47,193 nucleotides of DNA from Bacillota bacterium (GTDB lineage Bacteria > Bacillota > Sulfobacillia > JAJZYS01 > JAJYTV01), in the NCBI GenBank assembly GCA_021793315.1, contig JAJYSZ010000016.1, positions 1-47,193 of the forward strand, read 5' to 3'. Below are positions 1 to 47,193 of this stretch, one piece after another. How positions within the stretch are numbered: position 1 is the stretch's first letter; every line of letters begins with the position of its first letter. The notes under the pieces are model-generated. The model saw nothing but the letters and a program-made list of their open reading frames with translations. It had not been told where the DNA came from and searched no databases. The position numbers and the translations under genes were made by a program.

Positions 1-47
1 GCAACACAGCATACCATCCAAACCGAAGACGAGGGTGGAGGTGCGGT

Positions 48-128
48 GTGGATCTCAAGGCCTTTGCCGTCACCTTTGGACTGGTATTTCTGGCTGAATT
101 AGGCGATAAGACACAGCAACCTCATTGA
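48..128 (+). pseudogene. 5' fragment of a TMEM165/GDT1 (UPF0016) family cation transporter gene, cut by the ICE
   Basis: The frame starts at GTG 48 behind GGTGGAGGTG. It encodes a hydrophobic first helix ending in ELGDKTQ, the signature motif of the GDT1/TMEM165/UPF0016 family of membrane Mn2+/Ca2+ transporters. After DKTQ the frame runs into element DNA and stops at 126-128 as QPH-stop. The missing continuation (LTTMMLAARTRSP...) is found at the other end of the window, so the gene was split by integration and is not a natural short gene. The split falls directly behind the first ExGDKT motif, so this fragment cannot be functional alone. Family assignment rests on the motif and the hydrophobic context only. 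Confidence 0.85.
108..117. other. attL core, left ICE-chromosome junction
   Basis: AAGACACAGC here is repeated exactly at 47112-47121. Joining the sequence left of this copy to the sequence right of the other copy restores an uninterrupted GDT1-type reading frame (GDKTQLTTMML). This identifies the copies as the crossover cores. Serine integrases exchange at a central dinucleotide, so the true crossover point lies somewhere inside these 10 bp. Confidence 0.88.
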
Positions 129-309
129 CCATGATTCAGACGCATCCACGGTGCTGCCTCTGCACCGCAAGGTGCCCTTGCGAAAACCGGGGCGGAAGGC
201 GGTTGGGGCTGACCGATAAGCCTGTTTGGGGACGTCTCCACGAAACAGGGCAGCGGCTCGCCAGTGCGGCGAACTCGCTGCCCTCATCTTTTGTATGGGA
301 GGGATTCAC
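118..309 (+). other. left end of the element: integrase tail in the circular form, then leader
   Basis: No independent gene is visible here in the integrated state. If the element is circularised through the 10-bp core, bases 118-219 stay in frame with the integrase and add 33 codons before TAA 217-219. The predicted tail is basic near its end (RKVPLRKPGRK). Bases 220-309 are the leader of the next gene and end in a GGGAGGG ribosome site. Confidence 0.5.
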
Positions 310-6523: not shown

Positions 6524-7957
6524 ATGCGGCCGCTCGTGGTCAAGGTCCACATCTACCGGCCCGGCGGGGGGCGTTCCTACGGTCTCCCAGCTGCCTGTGG
6601 CCATCTGCGGTACATGAACAGCCCGAAGAAGGAGGAGCTCGTGACCGACGCAGCCTCCATGCGCGAGCAGCTCCAAGACGAGGCTGCGATCCACGCCAAG
6701 TACATGGATGAGCGGCCAGGATCGCAAGGACTCTTCGCGACAGACCCCGACCACCCGCCTGACCAAGCTACGCTCCAGCGGGAGATCGCAAAGCACCAGG
6801 GCCCCGTTTGGCGGCTTTTCGTCAGTGTGCACGAGGACGACGCACGGGAGATGGGCGGCGCGCTGATGCGCCGCCAGTCCTGGGAGGACGCTTGCCGGGT
6901 CGTGCTCCCCAAGATGGCGGAGGAGATGGGGATACCGGCCGGGCAGATCCGCTGGGCGGCGGCCATGCACCGGAAGGAGGGACATCCGCACATCCACCTG
7001 CTGATCTGGAGCCAAGATCCGGGGAAGGGGTTCCTCGGACGGGACGGCCTGGACAAGTCCAAGCGCGCTTGGGTGTCCGCCCTCTACGCGCCCGAGCGCG
7101 AGCGGCTGGGAGAAGAGAAATCCGCGCTGCGCGCCGCGATCGGCGAGGAGTTCCGCGAGGCGCTCGGTCGCACCACCACGGATGAGTTCGCCCGTCGCCT
7201 CACGGGGATCGCGGCGTCCCTGCCAGGGCAGGGGCGCCTAGCCTACGGGTACATGCCGGCATCCGTGAAGCGGCAGGTCGACGAAGCCGTAGACCACCTG
7301 CTCCGCGCGAGCCCCGAGCTGAGGGCGATGGCGGACAGGTTCGCCGACATCGCGGCCGAGATGGCGAAGCACTACTCGTACAAGGCCGAGCGACACGAGG
7401 CGGCAAGGGAGAAGGCCATGGCCGATCTTCGCCAGCGTCTCGGAGGAGCGCTGCTGCGCGCTGCCGTGGCAATGGACGAGCGTACGGCCTGGCAGTCCGT
7501 CGCTAACGAGGTAGCCCACGCAGCCATGGGGCGTTCCGAGGCATCCCCGACCCTGACCGCCTTCGTGCGCGAGGAAGTGTCGCGCCTGGCGCAGGATCCG
7601 TCCGAGAAGGCCGCGCTCGATGCCGCCCGCAGGCTTCTCACGAGCCACGAGATGGCAGAGAGAGTACGGGATCTCCTCGAGAACGCGGCGCGTCGAGGCC
7701 CCGCCGATGGTGCGGCGGAGCGCGCGGCCCGAGCGCGGGAGCGGCTGGAGGCGACCGTCGCCGGCAGGCTCCTGGGATCCGCCGAGTACGTCCGCGACGC
7801 GCGGCGGTTCAGCGTGGGCCAGATGTACTCCGGCATCGGCCGTGCCCTCGCGGCCACGATCCAGCAGGCGGAGCGCGATGCCCGTCTCGCCGAGGCGCAG
7901 GCCCTCGAGGAAGAGGCCCAGCGACGGCGGCAAGCCGCTGCCCAGCTCGGCGGCTAG
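6524..7957 (+). CDS. MobL/MobP-type relaxase
   Basis: A 477-residue protein from ATG 6524 with GGAGGTGG upstream. The N-terminal domain has GHLRYMNSPKKEEL (about residues 26-39), VWRLFVSVHEDDARE, and the metal-binding HUH motif in AMHRKEGHPHIHLLIW (His at 154, 156, 158). This is the arrangement of the MobL/MobP relaxases of Firmicutes. The C-terminal half is long, charged and helical (RHEAAREKAMADLRQRLG and similar), without a helicase domain. The enzyme would nick the element at oriT and lead the strand into the T4SS. The catalytic Tyr is probably the one in RYM. That is from family knowledge, not proved here. Confidence 0.82.
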   Translation: MRPLVVKVHIYRPGGGRSYGLPAACGHLRYMNSPKKEELVTDAASMREQLQDEAAIHAKYMDERPGSQGLFATDPDHPPDQATLQREIAKHQGPVWRLFVSVHEDDAREMGGALMRRQSWEDACRVVLPKMAEEMGIPAGQIRWAAAMHRKEGHPHIHLLIWSQDPGKGFLGRDGLDKSKRAWVSALYAPERERLGEEKSALRAAIGEEFREALGRTTTDEFARRLTGIAASLPGQGRLAYGYMPASVKRQVDEAVDHLLRASPELRAMADRFADIAAEMAKHYSYKAERHEAAREKAMADLRQRLGGALLRAAVAMDERTAWQSVANEVAHAAMGRSEASPTLTAFVREEVSRLAQDPSEKAALDAARRLLTSHEMAERVRDLLENAARRGPADGAAERAARARERLEATVAGRLLGSAEYVRDARRFSVGQMYSGIGRALAATIQQAERDARLAEAQALEEEAQRRRQAAAQLGG

Positions 7958-11957: not shown

Positions 11958-12836
11958 GTGGGCGGTCTGATCGTCTCGGGATTCTCCTACTTCGTGCAGA
12001 ACACACTCATCGATCCCGCTCTCCAGTTCCTGAGCTGGCTCTTCGTGGGCATCAGCCAGGGAGCGCTACTGCAGGCCCACCTGCCGTGGGTCTCCCAGGC
12101 TGTCGCGGTGAGCACCACAGTTGCCGGCGGACTCCTCTTCGTAAACCTCGCATGGCGCGCCCTCACGGAGTACGTGCTCTGGAACGAGGGCAGTTCCAGC
12201 GACGCTACAGGCACCCTCGGCAAAGGCGTGCTGCGCGTCGCCATCTACGGTGCTGCGGGGACATGGCTCGCCTACAACGTCTTCCAGTTCGGCATATGGC
12301 TCGCCGGAGCGTACATGGCTGCGCCGCTCCTGGGGAATGTCCAGGTCACCCACAACCTTGCAACCGACATCGCCTCGGTGCCGAACGTTGCCGTCGGCAC
12401 CATCCTCTTTGTGCTCTTCGGTGTTCTCGCAGTCGTCGTCGTGCTCGTCATCGTCACGCTGCAGATGGCGGTGCGGGCGGCGGACCTCGTGCTCTACATC
12501 GTTGCGGCGCCGCTCGTGGCGCTCGGACAGATGAACCGCGACGGAGGCGTGTGGAGCAACTGGTGGCGTTCTCTCATTGTTCTCTCGCTCTCGCAGGCGG
12601 TGCAGCTTCTCAGCCTCAAAGGCATGCTCGCCTCGACGCAGCTGCTGATGACCGGAACTGGGTCCTCCGCCACCACCGCGCAGATGATGCTCGTCATCCT
12701 CTGGATGCTCGGATGGGGTTGGGTGACAATCCGGGGGCCGCATCTGCTGCAGCAGTGGAGCTATCGGACCGGTTTCGCACAGGGCGGGCAGGCGATTGCG
12801 ACACAGGTTATTACCTCCCGCTTCCTGCGAGGATGA
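11958..12836 (+). CDS. VirB6/TrbL-like polytopic T4SS membrane protein
   Basis: A 292-residue protein from GTG 11958 with GGGAGG ahead. Several hydrophobic segments are visible: residues 15-35, 48-66, 95-120, 140-165 (VGTILFVLFGVLAVVVVLVI), 170-190 and 230-255. Such proteins form the inner-membrane channel of T4SS. The sequence MAVRAADLVLYIVAAPLVAL, then the loop MNRDGGVWSNWWRSLIVLSL, is typical of the TrbL/VirB6-like family in Gram-positive elements. It lies directly upstream of PrgI and VirB4, the usual order. Confidence 0.78.
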   Translation: MGGLIVSGFSYFVQNTLIDPALQFLSWLFVGISQGALLQAHLPWVSQAVAVSTTVAGGLLFVNLAWRALTEYVLWNEGSSSDATGTLGKGVLRVAIYGAAGTWLAYNVFQFGIWLAGAYMAAPLLGNVQVTHNLATDIASVPNVAVGTILFVLFGVLAVVVVLVIVTLQMAVRAADLVLYIVAAPLVALGQMNRDGGVWSNWWRSLIVLSLSQAVQLLSLKGMLASTQLLMTGTGSSATTAQMMLVILWMLGWGWVTIRGPHLLQQWSYRTGFAQGGQAIATQVITSRFLRG

Positions 12837-23574: not shown

Positions 23575-23631
23575 ATGGCATACGGCATAGTTCGCTTCCG
23601 CCCTCCGTTTGAGAGCATTCCTCGGGGCTGA
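23575..23631 (+). CDS. possible 18-residue leader peptide
   Basis: ATG 23575 lies 5 nt behind GGGAGGG and opens an 18-codon frame (MAYGIVRFRPPFESIPRG) ending in TGA 23629-23631, 37 nt before the adhesin start. The strong ribosome site is the only evidence. It could be an upstream ORF that tunes expression of the adhesin, or chance. Confidence 0.3.
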   Translation: MAYGIVRFRPPFESIPRG

Positions 23632-23668
23632 GTACCCATTCCCCGTAGATCCATTAGGAGGTGAATCC

Positions 23669-26600
23669 ATGCGACGTCTACTTCTCAAACTGTGGCGCGA
23701 AGAGGCCGGGGTCGCTCAGTACGTCGCGCTCGCCATCGCCCTGCCGATCCTCCTGATGGCGGCGGTGGCGGGCACAGCCCTGATCGAGACGGTCTCCGCG
23801 CAGTCCGTGCTGCACAACACGGCCGAGATCGTGGACCGCTCGCTTGTCGCAGACGGCTGCCTGACGCAGAACGCGCTGACTGCCGCGCAGCAGACGCTCC
23901 AGGCAAACAACATGAACCCGAACCAAGTCTATCTCGACACGACCGGAGGTTCCGGCGCGCAGCAACTCTACGGGCAGCGCGGCCTCTCGGTGAACATGGG
24001 CTACGATCTCAACCTCAACGTGCCCGGCACGAACTGGTCGGTTGCCAAGGACTATGTGCGGGCCCAGGTAGCTAGCGACCAGAGCCAGTACGTCCCGAAC
24101 GTTGTCAATAACTCGTCCTGCATCTCCACGACGGCGATGCAGACGGCTTTCCAGGGCACGCGGGGCCAGAATGGTGTGCAGTTGGCTGGTGGTTCCAGCT
24201 CGGGCGTCACTCCTCCGGCCACGATGCCGACCGCGATCACCGAGGCTGCGACTCCGACGACCGCGACGGTCGGTGAGACCGTGACGGTCAGCGGCCAGGT
24301 GTTGGAGAGCGGCTCGCCCGCTCCGGCCGGGGTCGCCGTTGCCATCTCCTCCTCGCAGGCCAACGCCACCGCGCAGACGAACGCGCAAGGCGGCTACACG
24401 GCCACGCTGACCTTTTCGCAACCCGGTACCGTGCAGATTGGCGTGATGGCCGGTTTGGTCACACAGACCGCCACGGTGGACGTCATCCCCGCGCAGCCCG
24501 CGACCATCCAGATTTCCGCGCCTAGCGCGATCGTAGTAGGCCAGCCCTTCACCATCTCCGGCACGGTGCTCGACGCTGCGGGCCAGGCCGTCGCCGACGG
24601 CACGCAAGTGTCGATCACCTCGAACGACGCCGCGGATGTTTCGAACCAGACCACTACTACGACTGCCGGACAGTTCATTTTCGATGTGTCGAGCGGCATC
24701 ACGTCGCTCGCGACGAACCCTGTCACGGTAAGCGTCTCGGCAAGCCCCGCCTCGCAGAGCGCATCCATCCAGGTGCAGCCGGGTGCGCCGCAGAGCGTCA
24801 GCTTCTCGGCAACACCCTCGTCCGAGACCGCCGGATCGCAGGTCTCCGTGAGCGGGCAGGTGCTCGGCCCGGACGGCACAGCCGTCGCTGCGGGGACGCA
24901 GGTCACGATCCAGTCCCCGAACGACACGGCGGACACCTTCCCGGTCCTCACAACGGACGCACAGGGTAACTTCTCCGGCACCGTGACACTTGATGAGGCC
25001 GGGCAGATCGACATGTACGCGAGCGCCGGCAAGGTGCAGAGCGCGCAGCAGACGGTGCAGGTGAGCGCGGGAGTGCCCAACCAGGTCGCAGGGCTCTCGG
25101 CGGATCCGAGCCCCGTGAACATGGGTGCGAACGACATCGTCTCCGGCACCGTGTTCGACCAGTACGGCAACCCGGTAGCTACGGGAACACAGGTCACACT
25201 GACATCGACGGGCTTCGCCTCGCCTGTGTCGGCCACCACCGGGGCCGGCGGCGAGTTTGCCACGACCGCGGTATTCCAGTCCTCCGGCATGCAGGTCGTG
25301 TCCGTCCAGTACCAGGGGGCAACTCTGCTCAACGGCACCGCTACTGTGAGCGTCAACATGCAGGGGGCCTATTCGCTCGTCGCTACGCAGTCGGCGACGA
25401 CGATCGTCGCTGGACAGACCCAGGCCGTGACTTTCACGCTCGAGGACTCGAACGGCAATCCGGTGGCCGGCGACACGATCGACTTCACGGAGACGCCCGA
25501 GGGCACTAGTTCGCTTTCGGCAACGTCTGCGACCACGAACTCCGCTGGCCAGGTCACGATCAACTTCTCGCCGACCGAGGCCGGCAATGCGGTGCTCACC
25601 GCTTCGCTCGCAGCCGACAACGGCACAACGACGGGAACCGCGGCGTGGATTGTCTCGGCGGCTTCCGAGAGCACCATCGACCCGCCTGCGATCACGCCGA
25701 GCGTCGTGCAGAGCATCAGCTACGGGGGCACCGTGGACCCGCAGATCAGCGGCATCGCGCTCGACCAGTACGGCAACCCGATCGCGGGAGCGACCGTGAC
25801 CATCACCGGCGGATGGGATCCCGGTGTCAACTTCACGGGCACGACGGACAGCACGGGCACGTTCAACATCTCCCTGACGCCTGTTGACCTCGGCGGGCCG
25901 TTCTACCCGACGATCACGGTCCAGTCGTCCCAGGGCACGACAACGCAAACGTATACGGATACCAGCCTCTCGGTGGTCAAGCAGCTCTACTACCTCACCG
26001 TGACCTCGCTCAGCGGCGCGAACGTCCCGGCCGGCACGCCCGAGGGCTTCGTGGCCACGCTTTCCGAGTACGGCGGCAACTCGAATGTGCCGGTTGCAGG
26101 TGCCTCGATCACGCTCGACGTCAGCTCCTCTGACAGCGCAAGCAGCAGTTGGAGTACCGCAACGCCCACACTTGCCGGCCCGACCAGCGTCACGGTCACG
26201 ACGAACAGCCAGGGGCAGGCGACCGCTAACGTCGCCTTCGAGAACAACCTCGGGTCGCAGACCGTGGAGGTTTCCTACCCCTACGACTCCACCCAGGGCT
26301 CCACCACGGTCAATGTGACCGCCAACACCGCGACGGCAGCATACTGGGGGTCTTCCAGCCCCAACCCGGTCGTAGCCGGTCAACCGTTCAAGTCGTCCGT
26401 GCAGCTCGTGGACAGCTACGGCTTCCCGGTGGCGGCGGGTGAGGCGGTCGGCCTCGCGTTCCCCGGTTCTACGGGTGCGACGTGGACTACCGCAGCCGGC
26501 GGCCAAGCCTCGGGCAGCGTCACCTCGACACTCGCGGGCAGCGGCTCCGTCACCGTGACGTCGATCGCGGGGCAAAGCGTCAGCGGTCTGCAGGCTTCTA

Positions 26601-27760
26601 GCCTCGAGACCGTCGTACCGGCGCCGATGGCGTACTTCTACCCGAAGCTGGGGCCGGCCAACAACACCGGCGGCACCATGCTCTCGGGCAACTCCTGGAC
26701 CGCCCCCAGCAGCCCCGCACAGGGACCGACCAACGCTTTCGGCACCCTCTCGGACCCACCGACCGGCGGCAGCACGTACTCCGTCGCGGGCGTCGGCTTC
26801 GACCAGTACGGCAACCAGGAGACGTCCGCTTCGGCGACCCTGAGCTGCGCCGCGGCGAGCGGCGGAGCCTGCCCGTCCCTGCCGGCCTCGGCCAGCGCCG
26901 GTTGGCAGAACGTCGGGGCCTTCGTCAGCGGCGCCTACACCCTAACGCTTACGCCCTCGAGCAGCTCCGGCGGCATCGCGTCGGCGCCTACCACAACGCA
27001 CCTCACGTTTACCGTACCCGGCCTCGTCGGCTGGAACGTCCAGGTGACTGGCAGCGCAAGCGCAGAGGGCAACTACGGCAGCACGATCAACCTCGGCACG
27101 TTCAGCGCTTCGTCAATCTCGCTGCAGTTCAGCGTCGAGGGCATCGACGAGAACGGCAACCCCTTCGTCGGCTACACCAACAACGGCACAGGCCAACTCG
27201 CCATCTCTGGCGCGGCCACGGTCCCGCTCGGATCCGCTGGCACACCGAATGGGTGGACGGCATGGAGCGGCAGCGCAACCTTCGGGCCGGGCACGTACAC
27301 CCTGACCATACCGGCGGGCAACTACGGGGCTGCAGGCGGGCAGAACTGGACGCCATCCGACAACACCTCCATTACGTTTACGGTGGCCAGCTCGCCCTAC
27401 CCGATAGTCAGTTCCGTGACAGTTCAAACCTGCACATCGGGTGGCAACACCTATGGTTCGGCCGTGTATATCTACGGCTCTGGTTTTGGCACCGGCGGGA
27501 CGATGACGCAATCACACACAGGATACGATCCCGGACCAAACGGCGGAGAGATCTGGCTTTACAATGCGGTCTTCAGCTACAACGTGGGGAACTCTGGCTC
27601 CTACCATTGGTACTCGGTGTCGTGGTCGCCAACCTTTATCGAGGTTGATTACCCCTTCGCTTGCAACGCATACGGCTATGGTTTCCAGATGGGCTACAAC
27701 AACATCTTGATCTACAACCCCCAAACGATGTACCAGACCACCTACTCGTGGGACTGGTGA
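23669..27760 (+). CDS. giant pseudopilin-like adhesin: TadE-type N-terminus plus many Ig-like domains
   Basis: A 1,363-residue protein from ATG 23669 behind TAGGAGGTG. Residues 1-45 (KLWREEAGVAQYVALAIALP, then a hydrophobic helix) resemble the start of TadE/TadG pseudopilins but lack the usual Glu at +5. A globular segment to about 175 holds two Cys. About eight to ten Ig-like/Big domains follow, each with the phrase FDQYGNPVATGTQVTLTS or a close variant. The C-terminal domain (about 1235-1363) is rich in Tyr, Asn, Gly and Trp, with YGSAVYIYGSGFGTGG as in IPT/TIG folds. It is likely a tip adhesin of the Tad pilus or a surface protein anchored by its helix. Confidence 0.75.
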   Translation: MRRLLLKLWREEAGVAQYVALAIALPILLMAAVAGTALIETVSAQSVLHNTAEIVDRSLVADGCLTQNALTAAQQTLQANNMNPNQVYLDTTGGSGAQQLYGQRGLSVNMGYDLNLNVPGTNWSVAKDYVRAQVASDQSQYVPNVVNNSSCISTTAMQTAFQGTRGQNGVQLAGGSSSGVTPPATMPTAITEAATPTTATVGETVTVSGQVLESGSPAPAGVAVAISSSQANATAQTNAQGGYTATLTFSQPGTVQIGVMAGLVTQTATVDVIPAQPATIQISAPSAIVVGQPFTISGTVLDAAGQAVADGTQVSITSNDAADVSNQTTTTTAGQFIFDVSSGITSLATNPVTVSVSASPASQSASIQVQPGAPQSVSFSATPSSETAGSQVSVSGQVLGPDGTAVAAGTQVTIQSPNDTADTFPVLTTDAQGNFSGTVTLDEAGQIDMYASAGKVQSAQQTVQVSAGVPNQVAGLSADPSPVNMGANDIVSGTVFDQYGNPVATGTQVTLTSTGFASPVSATTGAGGEFATTAVFQSSGMQVVSVQYQGATLLNGTATVSVNMQGAYSLVATQSATTIVAGQTQAVTFTLEDSNGNPVAGDTIDFTETPEGTSSLSATSATTNSAGQVTINFSPTEAGNAVLTASLAADNGTTTGTAAWIVSAASESTIDPPAITPSVVQSISYGGTVDPQISGIALDQYGNPIAGATVTITGGWDPGVNFTGTTDSTGTFNISLTPVDLGGPFYPTITVQSSQGTTTQTYTDTSLSVVKQLYYLTVTSLSGANVPAGTPEGFVATLSEYGGNSNVPVAGASITLDVSSSDSASSSWSTATPTLAGPTSVTVTTNSQGQATANVAFENNLGSQTVEVSYPYDSTQGSTTVNVTANTATAAYWGSSSPNPVVAGQPFKSSVQLVDSYGFPVAAGEAVGLAFPGSTGATWTTAAGGQASGSVTSTLAGSGSVTVTSIAGQSVSGLQASSLETVVPAPMAYFYPKLGPANNTGGTMLSGNSWTAPSSPAQGPTNAFGTLSDPPTGGSTYSVAGVGFDQYGNQETSASATLSCAAASGGACPSLPASASAGWQNVGAFVSGAYTLTLTPSSSSGGIASAPTTTHLTFTVPGLVGWNVQVTGSASAEGNYGSTINLGTFSASSISLQFSVEGIDENGNPFVGYTNNGTGQLAISGAATVPLGSAGTPNGWTAWSGSATFGPGTYTLTIPAGNYGAAGGQNWTPSDNTSITFTVASSPYPIVSSVTVQTCTSGGNTYGSAVYIYGSGFGTGGTMTQSHTGYDPGPNGGEIWLYNAVFSYNVGNSGSYHWYSVSWSPTFIEVDYPFACNAYGYGFQMGYNNILIYNPQTMYQTTYSWDW

Positions 27761-39195: not shown

Positions 39196-40473
39196 ATGCG
39201 TACTGACGAATTCTTCGAAACGATGACCACCGGCGCCACGGGGCACCTCGAGATCCGTCTCCTGAACGAGCAGACGGGGCACGTGTCGCAGCGCTTCTTC
39301 CCGCTGCCGGCAGGGCAGGCGGCCGCGGCCGAGTTCGCTGCGGCGCGATCGGGGAAGGAGCACGTCTTCTTCGGCGTCTACCCGAGGTCTCGCCCGAGAG
39401 GTCACGACGATGCCGTGCAGACCATCCAGTGCCTCTTCGCTGACGTCGATGCGAAAGACTTCGCCGGCGGGGAGGAGGAGGTACAGCGGCGATTCCTCGA
39501 GCTCTCCGTCGACGGCTACCCCCCGTCGATCCTTGTCCGCTCCGGCGGCGGAGGACGTCACGCATACTGGCTGCTCGAACAGCCGATGGAGCTGCCCGCG
39601 GACGACGGGGGTCTGCGCGACCAGGTGCGATCGACCCTCTGGGCGATCGGCGATGCCCTCGGGATCGCGCCGAAGGCCAACGTCGTCCACGACCTGGCGC
39701 GTGTCTTGCGAGTCCCGGGCACCACGAACATCAAGGCCAAGTACCCGGAGCCCCTACCGTGCACGGTCGAGTACACCAACCCTCGCCGCTACCGGTGGGA
39801 GGAGCTCGCGCCGCTGCGTGACGCCCACCCGCGACCGGCGGACCGCCTGCCACCGCGACAGTGGGTCGCGTTTTCCGATGCCTCTCCCGAGCCGGCCCTG
39901 GACCCGGAGACCCTGCTGGCCGACCTTTCCCTCAGCACCGCCATCAAGGGGCTCATCCGCTTCGGTGCCGAGTCGGGCCAGCGATCGGAGCAGGACCAGA
40001 AGGTGATCGTCGCGCTCGTGCGAGCCGGAGCCAGTCCGGACCGCATCCACGCGATCTTCGCCCATCCAGACCTGGCGATCGGCGAGAAGTTCCGGGCCCA
40101 CGGGTACCCGGAACGCTATCTCGGCTACTCGATCAGCAAGGCCCAGAGCTGGATCGCGGCACACCCCGAGCGCTACCCCGTCATGGACCAGAGCCTCCCC
40201 ATGCCGGACGAGGCGGCACTCGCCGCCCTCCTCCAGAGGGTCCGGCCGGAGCTACGACACATGCTTAAGTCGACCAAGGAGGGGCATCAGATCGCGGCCC
40301 TCGTGGAGCTGCGCTCCAAGGGCGCAACGTCGGGGGCCCTGTTCGCGGCGGCGATCTGCGCGGCGCCGGCGAGCGCCCCGACCGCGGCGCGGCTCTACCG
40401 ATACGCGATGGAGATCGCGAACCGCCCCCGGCCGCTGCCGACACCTCGTCAAGCGAGCGGCCTCGACCGCTGA
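39196..40473 (+). CDS. RepB-type DNA primase (archaeo-eukaryotic primase fold)
   Basis: A 425-residue protein from ATG 39196 with GGAGGG upstream. QTIQCLFADVDAKDFAGGEE holds the catalytic acidic pair (DVD), and SILVRSGGGGRHAYWLLEQP is the second AEP motif with the nucleotide-binding His. HDLARVLRVPGTTNIKAKYP gives the third. The C-terminal part is a helical domain (about 240-330) as in RepB/PriCT primases of plasmids. It would prime replication of the circular element or of the transferred strand in the recipient. Confidence 0.82.
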   Translation: MRTDEFFETMTTGATGHLEIRLLNEQTGHVSQRFFPLPAGQAAAAEFAAARSGKEHVFFGVYPRSRPRGHDDAVQTIQCLFADVDAKDFAGGEEEVQRRFLELSVDGYPPSILVRSGGGGRHAYWLLEQPMELPADDGGLRDQVRSTLWAIGDALGIAPKANVVHDLARVLRVPGTTNIKAKYPEPLPCTVEYTNPRRYRWEELAPLRDAHPRPADRLPPRQWVAFSDASPEPALDPETLLADLSLSTAIKGLIRFGAESGQRSEQDQKVIVALVRAGASPDRIHAIFAHPDLAIGEKFRAHGYPERYLGYSISKAQSWIAAHPERYPVMDQSLPMPDEAALAALLQRVRPELRHMLKSTKEGHQIAALVELRSKGATSGALFAAAICAAPASAPTAARLYRYAMEIANRPRPLPTPRQASGLDR

Positions 40474-40515
40474 AGGAGGGTCCGATGGACCGGCTGCTCC
40501 TTTCCTTGCCCCAGA

Positions 40516-40541
40516 GGCCGGTCCAAAACGTTTAGGAACGG
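40516..40541 (+). repeat. 26-bp element shared with the ardC leader
   Basis: GGCCGGTCCAAAAC (40516-40529) followed by GTTTAGGAACGG. It matches 1007-1032 in 23 of 26 bases. Its centre CCAAAACGTTTAGG is close to a palindrome. It ends 13 nt before the resolvase start and may be an operator or recombination-related site. Confidence 0.5.
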
Positions 40542-40554
40542 GGCGGAACGTCGC

Positions 40555-41154
40555 ATGAGGGTAGCACTCTACGCACGCATCAGTACGAATGATCGCAACC
40601 AGGACCCCGAGACGCAGCTGCTCGCCTTGCGGGACTTCGCCCGGGCGCAGGGATGGGATGTGCATGCCGAGTATGTGGACCGCGCGCCGGCGAACGATCC
40701 CGGGCACCGCACCGCCTGGCGGGCGCTGCTGGACGACGCCGCGAAGAAGCGCTTCCGGACGGTTGTGGTCTTCCGGCTGGATCGGGCGTTCCGCAGCGTC
40801 AAACACATGCACGACACGCTCTCGGTATGGGAAGCGGAGCAGGTCGACTTTCGCAGCCTCACGGAGGGCTTCGACACCGGAACGCCACTCGGGCGACTGC
40901 TCCTCAATCTGCTGGCCAGCCTCGCCGAGTTCGAGCTCGAGGTCCTCCGCGATCGCGTGCACGCCGGCATGGCCCGGGCGCGACGTCAGGGAAAGCGCAT
41001 CGGCAGACCGCCGATCATCGAGCGCCCCGAGGTGGCGCGGCTCTGGCCGACCGTCGAGCTGCGGATCCTCAACGGCGAGATCTCCCTGCGAGAGGCCGCT
41101 AAGCTCCTCCGCATCGGCAAGACGACGGTTCGACGTCTCCTGGAGAAGGACTAG
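40555..41154 (+). CDS. small serine recombinase (resolvase/invertase family)
   Basis: A 199-residue protein from ATG 40555. Catalytic Ser10 lies in ALYARIST. VVFRLDRAFRSVKHMHDTL carries the conserved Arg residues and LLLNLLASLAEFELEVLRDR leads to the long E helix. A C-terminal HTH (ISLREAAKLLRIGKTTVRRL) completes the family's normal size of about 190. It probably resolves dimers of the circular element or inverts a segment. Its target may be the repeat-bearing region just upstream. Confidence 0.87.
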   Translation: MRVALYARISTNDRNQDPETQLLALRDFARAQGWDVHAEYVDRAPANDPGHRTAWRALLDDAAKKRFRTVVVFRLDRAFRSVKHMHDTLSVWEAEQVDFRSLTEGFDTGTPLGRLLLNLLASLAEFELEVLRDRVHAGMARARRQGKRIGRPPIIERPEVARLWPTVELRILNGEISLREAAKLLRIGKTTVRRLLEKD

Positions 41155-41170
41155 CCTAATCAGGCGAGAG

Positions 41171-41199
41171 CGCCGGCAGGTGCAGCGCATCTGCCGGCG
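41171..41199 (+). terminator. terminator-like hairpin after the resolvase
   Basis: CGCCGGCAG (41171-41179) and CTGCCGGCG (41191-41199) with an 11-nt loop, followed by TTCTGTCGTTTG. The rest of the 295-bp gap to 41450 holds only the hairpin at 41324. Confidence 0.55.
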
Positions 41200-41323
41200 T
41201 TCTGTCGTTTGCTGGACCGGCACTTGAGGCTGCAGCGCGCCCAGTTTGTCCGTGTCCCTAAACGGGGGTGCGCCAGGACGATGCCTGCAGGCCGTTCTGA
41301 TGCACCTCGTTGCTCTATCGCAA

Positions 41324-41357
41324 GCCTGTCCCAAAAGGAACTCCTTTGCGGACAGGC
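41324..41357. repeat. long hairpin upstream of the ParB-domain gene
   Basis: GCCTGTCC (41324-41331) pairs with GGACAGGC (41350-41357), and inside it AAAGGA pairs with TCCTTT. The fold is nearly continuous and could be a bidirectional terminator or attenuator. Confidence 0.45.
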
Positions 41358-41449
41358 AGGAGATGGAGGATTCGGATGGAAGTGACGCCTAACATGCCAT
41401 GATTCGACACACCTGGCGCATTGCCGGGATGACGTGAGGGGGCTTCATT

Positions 41450-41875
41450 GTGGCTGTGGCCGAGTTGGAACCGCTGGGCGAGCCCCAAAGATACCCTGTC
41501 GCAAGCCTGTTGCTCGACCTTGAGAACCCACGCTTCAGACACCCGGTAGACAGCCAGAAGGCAGCGCTCCGAGAACATCTCGCTATGGAGCGGGACAAGA
41601 TCGTCAACTTGGCCCGAGACATCGCAACCCAGGGAGCGGTGAATCCTACCGAGTTGCCAGTGATCATGGAAGAAGACGGTCATCTGGTTGTGATCGAAGG
41701 CAATAGGCGATTGGCTGCCTTGAAGTTGCTTCTAACACCCGTCCTGGCCGATGGAGATGCGTCGACGTTCAGTAGCCCACGATACGACTTCCGGTTCAGC
41801 GCTCGCCGTTTCGATCGCGATCCCCCTTCTCCTTCCGCCGGCGGGTTGAAGCCGCCCATCGGTCGCCCCGCCTGA
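41450..41875 (+). pseudogene. truncated ParB/Srx-domain protein
   Basis: The frame starts at GTG 41450 and gives 141 residues. Residues 15-95 (VASLLLDLENPRFRHP, KIVNLARDIATQGAVNPTEL, VVIEGNRRLAALKLLLTP) are a typical ParB N-terminal domain of the longer, about 400-residue, defence-like family. After residue 105 the sequence becomes arbitrary (RRFDRDPPSPSAGG) and stops. The expected C-terminal two-thirds are missing, and the 257-bp gap behind it holds no recognisable continuation. It is probably a decayed cargo gene. The DNA here also seems less GC-rich than the surroundings. Confidence 0.55.
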
Positions 41876-42061
41876 CGGCAACATCCGGCCGGATCCCAAG
41901 GGCCTCGCACGATTCAACGTATCGTGCCCGACCTTCCTCGACTCTGTCTCTACCCATGGTCACACCCCTTTCGCGCGGAGCCTACCACGAGAAGGGAGGA
42001 AAATCGCCAGCGGCCGCCGCTCTCGGACCCGCGACTCCAGACGTCCCGCGAAAGGGGCGGC

Positions 42062-42075
42062 TTTCCGTACGAAAA
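42062..42075. promoter_or_regulatory. palindrome TTTCCGTACGAAAA (site 4)
   Basis: Differs from the perfect palindrome at 9107 by one base. It lies between converging genes (stop at 41875 on plus, stop at 42133 on minus), a place where a promoter operator is not expected. That favours a structural role such as a parS-like site. The rest of the gap 41876-42132 shows no gene. Confidence 0.5.
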
Positions 42076-42132
42076 GTTCTTTCATAATCATTGTCTGTCA
42101 TTCATTTGCTTTCCATGATGAAAGTGCCCTGC

Positions 42133-42315
42133 TTACTCATCCTGCGCCAGCGCCATTGCCAGCAGTTCCAAAACACTTTTTCTCGTCAAGGGGCTTAGAT
42201 TCTTCAATCGGCGTACCAGCTTACATACTTCAGTACCCGTCGCCTGGCCGCCCCGATCCTCCGGAGGAGGGTTACCCGGTCCGTTCGCTCGCCCATCCTT
42301 CGGAAGAAGGATCAC
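42133..42315 (-). CDS. small helical protein downstream of the XRE regulator
   Basis: A 60-residue protein read from GTG 42315, 1 nt after the stop of the upstream XRE gene. A longer frame to 42387 would overlap that gene by 71 bases. It has a Gly/Pro-rich first half and a helical end, LVRRLKNLSPLTRKSVLELL, typical of small partners in regulator operons. Coupled translation is likely. The function is unknown. Confidence 0.5.
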   Translation of the reverse strand: MILLPKDGRANGPGNPPPEDRGGQATGTEVCKLVRRLKNLSPLTRKSVLELLAMALAQDE

Positions 42316-42316
42316 A

Positions 42317-42889
42317 TTATCCCCGAGCCGCGTCCACCGAACCCGGCTCTTCTCCCGTGTCGTCGCCCACGTCGACCGGTTCTCCACCTCCCGGCTGGCC
42401 GCTGTCTCGGGGGGTGCCCATCAGCTGCATCATCAGCATGCGGAGATTCTCCTGCGCGATCTTCTCGCCTTCGCGCGCCGCCCGGTCAGCCTCGCGGGAC
42501 GCGCGCTCCGCCTCGCGCGCGATCTTCTCAGCCTCGGCCCGTGGGGCCTCCACCTGTTCGATTCTCAGGCGCTCATTCTCTTCGCGCATCTTCAGAGCTG
42601 TGGACAAATCCTCCGCTAGTCTCATCAAGCGTTCCGTAGGACCCTCTGCCGCCACCAGCCCATCAGAATGGGGAACCGGTGATGGATTCGCCTCGGATGT
42701 CACTAGATCTTCAAGCCTGACTCCGTACAACGCAGCGAGGCGCTGCAAGGTCTGAAGCCGTGGCTCCTGCTCGTTGTTCTCCCACTTGCTCACGACGGTG
42801 CGGCTCGTGTCTAACGCGCGAGCTACCGCCAGTTGACTTATGCCCTTGGCGCTCCTTGCTAGCCTCAGACGTTCTCCTAACGTGTCCAT
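42317..42889 (-). CDS. XRE-family repressor with C-terminal coiled coil
   Basis: A 190-residue protein from ATG 42889 on the minus strand. Residues 5-62 are an XRE HTH (ERLRLARSAKGISQLAVARA, VVSKWENNEQEPRLQTLQRL, LYGVRLEDLV). Residues about 85-150 form a long charged coiled coil (EKIAREAERASREADRAARE). The end is acidic and Gly-rich. It is transcribed away from the small XRE gene at 43023, and both share the 133-bp control region. This is the layout of ICE and phage maintenance switches (ImmR or CI type). Confidence 0.8.
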   Translation of the reverse strand: MDTLGERLRLARSAKGISQLAVARALDTSRTVVSKWENNEQEPRLQTLQRLAALYGVRLEDLVTSEANPSPVPHSDGLVAAEGPTERLMRLAEDLSTALKMREENERLRIEQVEAPRAEAEKIAREAERASREADRAAREGEKIAQENLRMLMMQLMGTPRDSGQPGGGEPVDVGDDTGEEPGSVDAARG

Positions 42890-42955
42890 TGGTCACATCC
42901 TACCCGGCGGGTCGCTTGGCAGCAACGGAGGTTCCACATGCGGGGCGCTAAACGC

Positions 42956-43000
42956 TTGACACGGTGCCTTGAAGGCTACACAATGTTCCATAGTAGGAAC
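42956..43000 (+). promoter_or_regulatory. promoter and operator between the divergent XRE genes
   Basis: TTGACA (42956-42961), a 17-nt spacer and CACAAT (42979-42984) form a good -35/-10 pair for the plus-strand XRE gene. Directly after the -10 is the inverted repeat GTTCC-ATAGTA-GGAAC (42985-43000), which would cover the transcription start. It is the most likely operator for one of the two XRE proteins. A lone GGTTCCAC at 42930 is a possible second half-site. Confidence 0.65.
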
Positions 43001-43022
43001 TACCCTTTGAGGGGGTGAGCTA

Positions 43023-43223
43023 ATGGCGACGCGCCTACGAGAAACCAGACGGGCCCAGCACCTCACTCAGGACCTAGTGGCCGAACGCGTCGGGATCAGC
43101 CGCACGTATTACAACCACATCGAGGCTGGCAGACGCCTGCCGTCCCTCAAGGTAGCATTTGACCTTGCGCGTATTTTCGCCGTTCCTGTCGAGGACCTCT
43201 TCCTGGCCGACGACGTCTCGTAA
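43023..43223 (+). CDS. small XRE-family regulator
   Basis: A 66-residue protein from ATG 43023 with GAGGGGG upstream. It is almost entirely an XRE HTH: LRETRRAQHLTQDLVAERVG, ISRTYYNHIEAGRRLPSLKV, FAVPVEDLFL. It lies opposite the larger XRE gene and behind the promoter at 42956. Small proteins of this kind often act as Cro-like or activator elements in ICE decision circuits. Confidence 0.8.
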   Translation: MATRLRETRRAQHLTQDLVAERVGISRTYYNHIEAGRRLPSLKVAFDLARIFAVPVEDLFLADDVS

Positions 43224-43318
43224 CCGCCCAGCACCCCGCAGCCCTATCGAACGGTACGGCGTACCACACAGATGCACTCGGGGACGCATAGACGCCCCCG
43301 GAATTGAGGGGGAGCACT

Positions 43319-43981
43319 ATGCCCACAGGGGGACGAGGTGCGATTCGGCGAGCTCGCCAGGACCGGGATCGCGAGTACCACACGATCATGCGAATGATGG
43401 CGCGACAGCGCATCGAAAGCCAAGTCGCCGATGCGATGGGGCCAGAGCACCCGCACCTGGGCGGGAAAGGCAACCGGTACGTCGGGCACGGAAGCCGAGC
43501 CAGCACCGCCGAGTGGGCTGCCCGCGACGCCTACCTGGAAGACCCTGAAGCGCTGGCCGACGATGGCACCCTTATCTGTGAGGCGTGCGGCGACCACGTG
43601 CCTCTCCTCGAATTTCGAGAGACCCGGCGAGCCATTCACATCCGCTGCATCACCGCACGAAAGACGGTGCCACGTCAGCGCCAGATCTGGGCACTCAGAC
43701 AGTCAACCCTTCCTGACCGCCCGTCCGCGCCGCTCCCAGAGGCCCTTCCCCTGCACGTAGACGGGCAGACCAACACTTGGTATGCCCGCGTGGGAACCAG
43801 GTCCATTCTTCTACACACGGAGGACGGGGGCACGATCCCGGCACTCCGCCCCGACCAGCCCGACATCGATACCGCTCGCGTGGCGGAAGCCGCAGCCGAA
43901 CGGCTGCGGCAGAAACTCCTGCCGCGTCGCCCGACCGATGCGAGGGCCGCCCGCCCGAAGATCCCGAGAGACTCGACCTGA
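43319..43981 (+). CDS. hypothetical protein with a CxxC motif
   Basis: A 220-residue protein from ATG 43319 behind GAGGGGGAG. The N-terminal part is basic and helical (RRARQDRDREYHTIMRMMAR). The middle has ICEACGDHVPLLEFRETRRA, one CxxC with a later HIRC, perhaps a zinc site. The C-terminal part is helical and basic. No family is recognised. It lies between the regulator and the toxin-antitoxin genes. Confidence 0.5.
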   Translation: MPTGGRGAIRRARQDRDREYHTIMRMMARQRIESQVADAMGPEHPHLGGKGNRYVGHGSRASTAEWAARDAYLEDPEALADDGTLICEACGDHVPLLEFRETRRAIHIRCITARKTVPRQRQIWALRQSTLPDRPSAPLPEALPLHVDGQTNTWYARVGTRSILLHTEDGGTIPALRPDQPDIDTARVAEAAAERLRQKLLPRRPTDARAARPKIPRDST

Positions 43982-44039
43982 GTGCCTCAAACGGGCGGGT
44001 GCCGCAGCGCCGTGGTAGACTACATCAGAAGGTGAGGCA

Positions 44040-44279
44040 ATGCACGTGGTCCTGAAAGTGATCGTCCACCATAAGACCGATGGCCCTGGGTACCTTGCGG
44101 CATGTCCAGAGCTCCAAGGGTGTCACGCCGAAGGCGACACTGTGGGCACGGCGATCGACAACCTGCAGGACGTCGCCCGCACTCTCCTCGAACTGCGCAG
44201 AGCGGATGGTAGCCCCACTCCCGAGCCCTTGAGCCAGGCTACCGCCGCAATGGATGGAGTCTTGACGGTGAGCCTTTAG
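44040..44279 (+). CDS. hicB: HicB-type antitoxin
   Basis: A 79-residue protein from ATG 44040 (GTGAGG upstream). GPGYLAACPELQGCHAEGDT then TAIDNLQDVARTLLEL is the partial RNase-H-like HicB fold. There is no added DNA-binding domain, so autoregulation may need the complex or another protein. It precedes the HicA gene by 8 nt, antitoxin first, the reverse of the classical hicAB order but common. Confidence 0.83.
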   Translation: MHVVLKVIVHHKTDGPGYLAACPELQGCHAEGDTVGTAIDNLQDVARTLLELRRADGSPTPEPLSQATAAMDGVLTVSL

Positions 44280-44287
44280 CGACGGCC

Positions 44288-44518
44288 ATGACCTACCGAG
44301 AGCTGAAAGCCTTTCTTCGAGAGAACGACTGCGAATTTCGCCGGGAAGCCAAAGGATCTCACGAGATCTGGTGGCACCCGGCGAAACGTTTGTATACCAC
44401 CGTGCCAAGGCACTCCGGCGACATCGACACCGGCACGTTGCGGAAGATCCTTTCCGACCTCGACCTGCCGAGGCCTCGCTCGCTCCGTCGCGACAGACAC
44501 CTCGACGCTGACCGCTGA
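44288..44518 (+). CDS. hicA: HicA-type mRNA interferase toxin
   Basis: A 76-residue protein from ATG 44288. TYRELKAFLRENDCEFRREA then KGSHEIWWHP, with the catalytic His25, and VPRHSGDIDTGTLRKILSDL give a complete double-stranded-RNA-binding-like HicA fold. HicA cleaves mRNA when free of HicB. On an ICE the pair would favour retention of the element after excision. Confidence 0.85.
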   Translation: MTYRELKAFLRENDCEFRREAKGSHEIWWHPAKRLYTTVPRHSGDIDTGTLRKILSDLDLPRPRSLRRDRHLDADR

Positions 44519-44528
44519 TCTCTTGCAC

Positions 44529-44558
44529 ACCGCCCGGCAGGCAGCCGGGCGGTATTTT
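44529..44558 (+). terminator. intrinsic terminator after hicA
   Basis: ACCGCCCGGC-AGGCA-GCCGGGCGGT (44529-44553) followed by ATTTTG. Stem of 10 bp, loop of 5. Confidence 0.85.
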
Positions 44559-44605
44559 GTGCTGCAACCAAGGAGGCACGCCCAACTGGACGGGAGGCTA
44601 AGACA

Positions 44606-45085
44606 GTGGACGAGGAATGGGTTATCGTGATGGTGGAGGCCGTGCCGTTGGGTGGTGGGGAGGCCCGACCGATGGTGGGCATCTGCCCCGTGAGCGTGTC
44701 CGATCCGCACAGCGACGTCGCGATCTGTCCGGACGAGGAGTCGGCCGCATATGAGGCCGCGGCGGTTGCCGAAGCGCTGGGCCTTCCGCTCTACGACGGC
44801 GCCGATCCCCACCCGATGCCGCTGGACGCCGCCCGCTACGTCGACCGAGACTGGGACGGCACCGACCGCTACGCCGAGGCGGCGGCAATAGCTCGCCGCG
44901 ATGGCGCCCCAATGCCACAGGTCCCGAGCATCCAGGCAAAGGTACACGCACGGCTAGAGACGTCATCCCCCGGAACCGTTCACCTAAACCCAGGTGGATC
45001 CAGCAGGGCGTTGCAGCGGGCGCAGAATCGCGACGGCGCGAGGCGGCAGAAGCATCCCGCCAACGGCAGAGGAGAGGACAGGTAA
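44606..45085 (+). CDS. hypothetical protein
   Basis: A 159-residue protein with GTG start at 44606, 8 nt after GGGAGG. The N-terminal part is acidic and beta-rich (DEEWVIVMVEAVPLGGGEAR). The middle is Ala/Asp-rich (EESAAYEAAAVAEALGLPLY), and the C-terminal third is basic and low in order. No family is recognised. Confidence 0.45.
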   Translation: MDEEWVIVMVEAVPLGGGEARPMVGICPVSVSDPHSDVAICPDEESAAYEAAAVAEALGLPLYDGADPHPMPLDAARYVDRDWDGTDRYAEAAAIARRDGAPMPQVPSIQAKVHARLETSSPGTVHLNPGGSSRALQRAQNRDGARRQKHPANGRGEDR

Positions 45086-45154
45086 CAGGACAGACACGAG
45101 GCCGCCTGAGCGCCGGCCCTCGCCGCTAGAGCCATCGACGGACATTGTCTTAGG

Positions 45155-45195
45155 TCCCGGACACCGAGGCGTCTCGGTGGTCCGGGATCTTTCGT
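45155..45195 (+). terminator. intrinsic terminator before the integrase operon
   Basis: TCCCGGAC-ACCGAG, loop GCGT, CTCGGT and TCCGGGA (45155-45187) form a long stem with one bulge, followed by TCTTTCGT. It lies in the 200-bp gap 45086-45285, where the integrase promoter should also be, although no clear -35/-10 is seen. Confidence 0.7.
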
Positions 45196-45285
45196 GTTGT
45201 CACAGCGCGATCACACAAGCGGGGCACGGGACAAGCCCTGTTGCGCCACCGACTTACATAGCTTGTCGCGGAGGAGGGGAAGCTC

Positions 45286-45480
45286 ATGGCCCTAGAGACC
45301 CAACCGACGTCGGGACGACGGCGCGGGCGTGGCCGCCGGCTTGAACTTAAGGTCGTCGTGGTCCAAGATCCCGATGTCGCAAAGTTTGACGAGTTCCTTC
45401 ACCTACTGCACGGCCTGATCCAGACCTCCATCGCTGAGGCAGGTGTCAACCCCTTCAGCCGCGAAGGACCGGAGCCGTGA
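45286..45480 (+). CDS. small basic protein before the integrase (possible directionality factor)
   Basis: A 64-residue protein from ATG 45286 with GGAGGGG upstream. The N-terminus is very basic (RRRGRGRRLELKVVVVQD), followed by a beta strand and a helix (EFLHLLHGLIQTSIAEAG). It ends 15 nt before the integrase start and is surely co-transcribed. Small basic proteins in this place are often recombination directionality factors. Nothing in the sequence proves it. Confidence 0.5.
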   Translation: MALETQPTSGRRRGRGRRLELKVVVVQDPDVAKFDEFLHLLHGLIQTSIAEAGVNPFSREGPEP

Positions 45481-45495
45481 GAGGGGGGGACTGCG

Positions 45496-47133
45496 TTGAC
45501 GCAGCGAGCTGCGCTGTACAAGCGCGTCTCAAGCTACGCGCAGGTCAAGGAAGGCTACTCCCTCCAATTCCAAGCGGAGATCATGCGCGACTTCTGCCAG
45601 AGGCAGGGGCTCGAGGTTGCAGCCGTATACGAAGACAGCGGGCGCACCGGTTCAAACACGGAGCGCGAAGGGCTACAGCAGCTCGTCAAAGACGCGAAGA
45701 CGAGAAGCTTCGAAGTCGTGCTGATCTTCCGCGTCGATCGCTTCAGCCGCGACCCCCTGGACCTCCTCTACCTCGTTCAGGAGCTCAACAAGCGGGAGAT
45801 CAAACTGAGATCCGTAACCGAGGCCGTGGATGCGAGTGACCCAGCCGGAGAGCTGATGCTCACAATCCTCGGAGCCATCGGAAAGTTTGTCCGTGCCAAC
45901 ATCATGCAGAACGCCGCGCTGGGCAAAACCAAGCGTGCAGAGTACGGACGGTACAACGGCGGCCGGGTGCCTTTTGGGTACATCGTGGGCGATGACGGCC
46001 ATTTCGCCCCCGACTCGGCTGACTGGTGGAACGGAATGACCGTCTCGAGCGTTGTCGGGTTTGTCTTCGACGCCTTCCTCCGCATCTCCGCGACGCAGGG
46101 TGGCGGCATTCGGGGCGTTGCCCGCTGGTTGGACAGCCAGGGGGTGCCAACGCCAACCCGCAGTGCTGCGGGCTGGGGTCCAGGGGTAGTGCGCCAGCTG
46201 CTGCGCAATCCCGTCTACACAGGCGACTACGCCTACGCCAAGACGAAGCAGGCGATGCACGGAACCGCGCAGCCTCGTCCGAGCGGCGAATGGGTAGTCT
46301 CGCAAGACGCCCACGAACCCTTGGTTACGCGTGACACTTGGAAGCGCGTCCAGGCCCTCCTCGACAACAACCGCTCGATCACTGCTTCCCGGTCGACCCA
46401 TCCCGGCGCAACCGAACTACTCACCGGGTTTCTGCGCTGTTCCCTGTGCGGATCGGCTCTGGTGGCCAGGTACCCGTCCAAGAAGACACGCTACCTCTAC
46501 TACACCTGCGGCAGCCGTTACAACGCCTCGCGTCGCAAACAGAACTCGCCTTGCGCTTTCCCCTTCATCCGGAGCGGCGATCTGGAGCGCGCGGTCTGGG
46601 ATCTCGTGACCACTACCGCCTCTGACGCGGAGGCCGTAAGACGCCTCCTGGAGGTCGAGACACAAGACAACGGGCGCCTGGCACTGATCGAGCACCGCCT
46701 TGAACAGGCACGCAAGGCGATTGCCAAGGCGGAACACGACGAGGAGCGTCTCATGGACTCGGCGCTGCAGGGCGTCTTTCGTCCGGAACTCATCGCACAG
46801 CGCGCTGCCGACGTGCGACAGCGCCGCGACGCGGCGCAAGGCAAGATCGCTCTCGCCGAGAGGGAACTCCGTGACGCCTTGAGGGCCCAGCCATATGAGA
46901 TGGCCGACGCAGCCAAGTTGCGGGCCTACATCGCTCCCCTGCTCGCAGGCAAAGCGCTGACGCTGCAGACGAAACGCGACATCCTCTCCCTCCTGGTTGG
47001 CCCTCGCGGCATCGCCGTCGCACCGGACGGGGTGATCGAGATGAGGCTGCGCGTGCCCTCAGACATACTCAAGAGCACGGTACTAAACATCGTCAGAAAG
47101 GAGCCTGCGTCAAGACACAGCTCACTACCATGA
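45496..47133 (+). CDS. int: large serine integrase of the ICE
   Basis: A 545-residue protein in the integrated state, with TTG start at 45496 behind GAGGGGGG. The resolvase domain starts with ALYKRVSSYAQVKEGYSLQF (catalytic Ser12), and VVLIFRVDRFSRDPLDLLYL follows. The recombinase domain contains GVARWLDSQGVPTPTRSAAG. A zinc ribbon at about 315-352 (CSLCGSALV, YYTCGSRYN, a final Cys) is followed by a coiled coil (IEHRLEQARKAIAKAEHDEE) and a last domain. The last codons cross the attR core, and the stop (TGA 47131-47133) lies in host DNA, overlapping an ATG of the split transporter gene. In the circle the frame would continue for 33 codons instead of three. Confidence 0.93.
   Translation: MTQRAALYKRVSSYAQVKEGYSLQFQAEIMRDFCQRQGLEVAAVYEDSGRTGSNTEREGLQQLVKDAKTRSFEVVLIFRVDRFSRDPLDLLYLVQELNKREIKLRSVTEAVDASDPAGELMLTILGAIGKFVRANIMQNAALGKTKRAEYGRYNGGRVPFGYIVGDDGHFAPDSADWWNGMTVSSVVGFVFDAFLRISATQGGGIRGVARWLDSQGVPTPTRSAAGWGPGVVRQLLRNPVYTGDYAYAKTKQAMHGTAQPRPSGEWVVSQDAHEPLVTRDTWKRVQALLDNNRSITASRSTHPGATELLTGFLRCSLCGSALVARYPSKKTRYLYYTCGSRYNASRRKQNSPCAFPFIRSGDLERAVWDLVTTTASDAEAVRRLLEVETQDNGRLALIEHRLEQARKAIAKAEHDEERLMDSALQGVFRPELIAQRAADVRQRRDAAQGKIALAERELRDALRAQPYEMADAAKLRAYIAPLLAGKALTLQTKRDILSLLVGPRGIAVAPDGVIEMRLRVPSDILKSTVLNIVRKEPASRHSSLP
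47112..47121. other. attR core, right ICE-chromosome junction
   Basis: Second copy of AAGACACAGC. To its right the GDT1-type frame resumes (KTQLTTMML). To its left is element DNA within the integrase gene. The deduced attB is the joined chromosomal sequence, and the deduced attP lies inside the integrase 3' end joined to the left-end leader. Confidence 0.88.
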
Positions 47134-47193
47134 TGCTGGCCGCACGCACGCGCTCACCGCTGCTGATCTTCGCAGCGGCAGGTCTTGCCCTCG
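47112..47193 (+). pseudogene. 3' part of the TMEM165/GDT1 family transporter gene
   Basis: Reads KTQLTTMMLAARTRSPLLIF and on to the window edge, the natural continuation of ELGDKTQ in this family. ATG 47130 overlaps the integrase stop as ATGA, so a protein lacking the first 26 residues, including the first ExGDKT motif, could be made by coupled translation. The gene continues beyond the window. Confidence 0.83.

Follow-up and report, generated by a model that had tools for sequence, protein, structure and literature searches.

The window, i.e. the whole stretch of DNA analysed here, is the entire contig C2 of genome G000, 47,193 bases long and of metagenomic type, in which a mobile element is flanked by host sequence of just 107 bases on one side and 72 on the other. 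The element encodes a MobL relaxase, a coupling protein (T4SS-DNA_transf), a TraG-type ATPase (TraG P-loop) and TrbL (TrbL_4), along with a lytic transglycosylase, ParB, an ArdC-like protein and, besides a large serine integrase, a second small resolvase. Because relaxase, coupling protein, T4SS ATPase and integrase occur together, the element is best described as a predicted integrative and conjugative element. A 1383-aa protein with Ig-like and carboxypeptidase-regulatory domains (23609-27760) is likely a surface protein of the element.

The integrase has the architecture of the large serine integrases: a Resolvase catalytic domain, a Recombinase domain and a zinc ribbon (PF00239, PF07508 and PF13408, all over cut-off and all within residues 5-371), and a coiled coil that appears as long paired helices (378-425 and 430-463) in an AlphaFold2 model. 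The NCBIfam XisF and CcrB profiles also match it, below their cut-offs. The features of the locus are collected in Table 1.

Table 1. Features at the integrase end and the two junctions of the element (window positions).
Feature	Position	Strand	Remarks
Large serine integrase ORF, integrated form	45496..47133	+	545 aa, TTG start; Pfam Resolvase, Recombinase, Zn_ribbon_recom; residues 1-539 lie before the probable crossover, RHSSLP and stop are host DNA
64-aa ORF directly upstream of the integrase gene	45286..45480	+	candidate directionality factor by position alone; no family match
Second, small resolvase	40555-41154		helix-turn-helix hint
Left core copy (attL)	108..117	+	probable crossover 108/109
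Right core copy (attR)	47112..47121	+	probable crossover 47112/47113, between integrase codons TCA and AGA
P half-site of attP, 25 bp, within integrase codons	47088..47112	+	dyad
GTCA motif of P half-site	47092-47095		18-21 bp from centre; also in integrase arms of G084 and G105
P' half-site of attP, 25 bp	109..133	+	dyad; TGAC at 126-129 mirrors GTCA of the other arm
5' fragment of interrupted host GDT1	48..128	+	now reads VDLKAFAVTFGLVFLAELGDKTQQPH and stop; GDT1 in the empty site
3' part of host GDT1, to contig end	47113..47193	+	its ATG at 47130 overlaps the integrase TGA (ATGA)
Circle-only extension of the integrase frame	118..219	+	33 codons and TAA; coding potential equivocal

The halves of the host gene, joined outside the cores, read VDLKAFAVTFGLVFLAELGDKTQLTTMMLAARTRSPLLIFAAAGLAL, a GDT1-family protein (PF01169). 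The joined flanks (window 1-117 and 47122-47193) are identical at 189/189 bases to an uninterrupted GDT1 gene on contig C14 of G007, a genome of another genus in the same family as G000, and agree with G000's own GDT1 copy (C78) at merely 124/189 positions in an ungapped comparison, so the window contig has possibly been binned with the wrong genome and its host strain is likely G007-like. Whichever bin is right, empty and occupied alleles of one sequence exist. At 47130-47133 the integrase stop codon (TGA) and the start codon (ATG) of the remaining GDT1 part share bases (ATGATG), as they do in G084 (L052). Upstream of GDT1, no Rfam family matched at the gathering threshold (L046).

The attachment site within the integrase frame

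Two copies of the 10-bp core AAGACACAGC, and no more, are present in the window. The integrase ORF traverses the right-hand copy, with zero stops ahead of the crossover, and ends as ...EPAS/RHSSLP-stop in the integrated state. When the ends of the element are joined, the resulting attP shows a dyad with 18/29 positions paired and its centre between 47112 and 47113, a score equalled by 20 of 20,000 mononucleotide shuffles at the best of 40 centres, and GTCA lies 18-21 bp from this centre in both arms. The site fits the two-arm attP described for serine integrases (positions compared with PMC3783163): a short, simple attP whose inverted half-sites are each about 25 bp long, with an outer motif near positions 16-24. 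We infer that the crossover falls at the left edge of the core, on a codon boundary, where the central dinucleotide would be AA, within the Lys codon of GDKT. Because the dyad is centred there, the integrase-side half-site is integrase coding sequence, with roughly the last eight integrase codons before the crossover doubling as the P half-site. Exchange anywhere else within the shared 10 bp would leave the protein products unchanged. As the next 9 bases are common to host and element, the residues RHS are identical in the integrated and circular states.

Joining position 47121 to 118, as in the deduced circle, keeps the frame and adds NLIDHDSDASTVLPLHRKVPLRKPGRKAVGADR before a stop at 217-219, so that a circle form of 539 + 3 + 33 = 575 aa would be made if the element circularises and this frame is translated. 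The earlier note had placed attP inside the integrase frame, with integration adding only SLP from the host (545 aa) and the circle adding 33 residues from 118-219 (575 aa); coordinates, residues and lengths are all correct, the core does sit in the last codons, and a C-terminus that depends on the integration state is a sound deduction for a circle deduced from joined ends. The frame could have been lost at the circle junction or closed by a stop before the core in related elements; the deduced junction keeps it, and the five nearest homologues have no such stop.

The length of the 33-residue tail is what is expected by chance: when 118-310 is shuffled, 33% of the shuffles leave the tail frame open for at least 33 codons, an opening of this length is reached from 63% of all window positions, and a neighbouring frame in the tail region is open for 64 codons. 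The codon score is equivocal, falling between coding and non-coding: the 25 codons beyond the half-site score -2.6, compared with a mean of 13.6 (sd 9.5) for in-frame and -15.9 (sd 10.3) for out-of-frame stretches of the same length, and an equally high score is reached by 7.8% of the out-of-frame stretches, an equally low one by 6.6% of the in-frame ones. Over 118-216 the integrase frame scores best of the three (-1.1 versus -16.7 and -28.1). The tail contains the strongly basic stretch RKVPLRKPGRK and terminates in ...AVGADR, in which no ssrA-like ending was seen on inspection by eye. An AlphaFold2 model of the integrated form, built from a six-sequence alignment and weak overall (mean pLDDT 71.6, pTM 0.35), offers no confident fold for the C-terminus: the last helix spans 522-525, and residues 526-534 and 540-545 fall below pLDDT 50.

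In public data, a 21-base pattern of the circle junction had 0 matches in viral contigs, the integrase alone as query found none there, and a four-sequence alignment retrieved just 5 distant loci (23-29% identity); among plasmids there was no near match to window 40000-47112, and the genome contig collection yielded one distant locus (25%).

Related integrases and their sites

We compared the integrase with 61 relatives, all 154 genomes of the class and 398 genomes drawn from the phylum; in the phylum draw, matches with an E value of 1e-70 or better came from the window's own genome alone. Its five closest homologues lie in G109 (54% identity), G084 (52%), G105 (50%), G007:C2 (35%) and G001 (32%). 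In G084, G105 and G109 the site is the same GDT1 codon, and in G007:C2 and G001 it lies in a gene for a P-type ATPase, at the codons for DKTGTLT (L047, about 1600-1660; L048, about 6750-6770), the identity of the gene having been checked for G007. A/AGAC is common to the DKTGTLT and GDKT sites, and one integrase clade has moved between these two conserved Asp-Lys-Thr motifs. All five homologous integrases have zero stops before the crossover and end 3 to 9 codons into host DNA, with host-side endings that vary widely (RRSWPP, KLN, YPQVLRRI, RPAPSHATR and RPAP, next to RHSSLP in the window). The crossover, placed by the dyad in the window and by analogy with A/AGAC in the five others, lies on a codon boundary and in the same codon phase in 6/6 elements. 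This shared phase argues that a site within the reading frame is more than chance, and because the six are related they do not count as six independent events. In the four proteins of GDT1-site elements, V533 is nearly the sole fixed residue near the end and is encoded by the GTC of the half-site motif; a DNA-level motif thus appears to fix C-terminal codons.

In G109 the integrase gene faces the 5' half of GDT1, i.e. the opposite orientation (L073, about 1620-1690; L051), and its strand has TT at the centre versus AA in the others. In serine integration the orientation follows from the central dinucleotide, a rule with which G109 agrees.

Among the 22 more distant loci listed, which include some cut by contig ends and are not part of the 6/6 count, the integrase frames of L011, L014 and L020 apparently continue into a gene for a sporulation sigma factor (the SigK profile was run on the locus of L020 only), and that of L012 seems to stop roughly at its junction. 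Apparent reading of more distant integrases into a SigK-type gene, a skin-like site, is noted at L102 (about 12150-12530), L103 and L104; the left half of the SigK-type target gene was not found in the sequence stretches inspected.

The other ends of the homologous elements, from which their circle tails would be read, were not recovered with a 47-aa GDT1 query in 7 genomes, with degenerate ELGDKT patterns (8 genomes, then 3 genomes) or by reading the homologue contigs, and an ELGDKT pattern match in G084 was rejected because it lies inside an unrelated 676-aa ORF. Apart from one weak match, window ORFs other than the integrase matched nothing in the homologous elements. Fragments holding only the 5' part of GDT1 in G002, G006, G009 and G007:C74 were considered as attL of related elements and rejected; their frames were not used as tails because three of them seem to go back to a single old event, shared between them and lying next to an intact gene, and none has an integrase attached. 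In three genomes some 900 bp separate such a fragment from an intact GDT1 downstream of it, and similar DNA follows the fragment. The fragments (L044, about 6800-6900; L045, reverse strand, about 230-310; L026, about 580-660) end at or near the attachment codons and may be either a truncated paralogue or the scar of an old, shared event.

Possible readings of the predicted C-terminal change

We favour, at a probability of roughly 0.7, a compact module of integrase gene and attP in which the changed tail is a tolerated by-product. In its favour speak the frames and the core, the perfect empty site, the attP dyad, the codon phase and host-borrowed stop common to 6/6 elements, V533 as part of the half-site motif, a tail opening of chance length with an intermediate codon score, the low pLDDT near the end of the protein and the widely differing host-side endings. 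The integrase would bind a P half-site encoded in its own gene, a 25-bp half-site that is coding sequence, and would exchange strands at the AA, between two integrase codons, with the GDKT codons of GDT1. With the half-site coding and the crossover between codons, the gene carries no stop codon upstream of the crossover, and each exchange would swap the last codons and the stop: in the integrated state the frame borrows its stop a few codons into the interrupted GDT1 gene, and in the circle it would borrow one from the other end of the element, 33 codons on. The protein core (Pfam domains, 5-371) would be unaffected, and the codons at the end of the frame are probably held by DNA recognition rather than by the protein tail. 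On the other hand, the integrase frame scores best over 118-216, the tail holds a strongly basic stretch and the AlphaFold2 model is weak overall (pTM 0.35); moreover, in 6/6 elements the roughly 19 codons that separate the crossover from the last folded segment are free of stops, which could reflect selected read-through.

The frame preserved over the deduced circle junction, RKVPLRKPGRK and the layout common to six elements would also suit a state-dependent switch, in which the basic tail of the circle form alters stability, DNA affinity or directionality; integration, by removing the tail, would then fix the element in place, and excision would bring the tail back. We regard such a switch as unlikely, given a tail of chance-level length with an equivocal codon score and no ssrA-like ending by eye, and given that no tails could be read for the relatives, whose other ends were not found. 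The earlier note's proposal that a switch of stability or activity makes recombination self-limiting is not supported, on these same points and for want of a confident C-terminal fold in the model. Improbable too, in our estimate, is a clade of serine integrases that dropped its own stop so that recombination rewrites the C-terminus, the basic circle tail favouring integration and the short host end idling the enzyme until excision. Selection might instead act on the integrated side, with the borrowed stop, which in the window as in G084 shares bases with the ATG of the remaining GDT1 part, coupling translation of the integrase to that of a truncated GDT1; yet the stop lies elsewhere in G105, G109 and G001, the overlap follows from conserved host codons and a fixed phase, and the remainder is without the ELGDKT segment, which makes coupling very improbable. 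Hardly credible is a frame crossing that is accidental or an assembly artefact of this locus only: the window is a whole metagenomic-type contig with short host flanks that match another bin, but the empty site is perfect, attP forms a dyad and five homologues have the same layout.

If the tail does act, a recombination product would directly edit the recombinase, a directionality control built into a family that otherwise leaves direction to a separate factor. The arrangement has practical consequences also if the tail is a by-product: integrases of this clade predicted from integrated copies get host-encoded C-termini, and cloning such enzymes as tools would miss the native circle form.

Comparison with known systems

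No paper describing a serine integrase whose frame crosses attP turned up in the literature searched, which covers part of the journals. The phiFC1 integrase (AF124258) is, like that of the window, a large serine recombinase with attP at the 3' end of its gene, 27.6% identical over 78% of the query; its annotated CDS, however, ends at 1426 and the attP core lies at 1445-1447, so that its frame terminates at a stop of its own, 19 bp short of the core. The skin, gin and fdxN (XisF) elements resemble the window in that a serine-recombinase element splits a host coding gene, and differ from it in that the window's target is GDT1, of a divalent-cation antiporter family, with no sign of programmed excision. 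State-dependent tails had been put forward as a precedent among repressors and integrases of actinobacteriophages. As described in PMC6109161 and PMC9934374, the precedent concerns repressors, in which integration-dependent immunity places attP in the 3' end of the gene, the circle form has a longer C-terminus and the piece lost on integration is an ssrA-like degradation tag. In the window, by contrast, the integrase rather than a repressor carries attP, and no ssrA-like tag was seen by eye. The archaeal suicidal (SSV-type) integrases come near in another way, as attP lies within the integrase gene and integration, which splits it, alters the integrase; the review PMC8371274 calls self-disrupting recombinases exclusive to archaea. 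Those enzymes are tyrosine recombinases whose gene is split and inactivated, whereas the window's enzyme is a serine recombinase, not a tyrosine recombinase, and its gene is not split, with 539/545 residues before the crossover and a change in the last residues only. Were it true that the clade gave up its own stop to have its C-terminus rewritten, it would be a bacterial, serine-family and non-destructive counterpart of the archaeal suicidal integrases.
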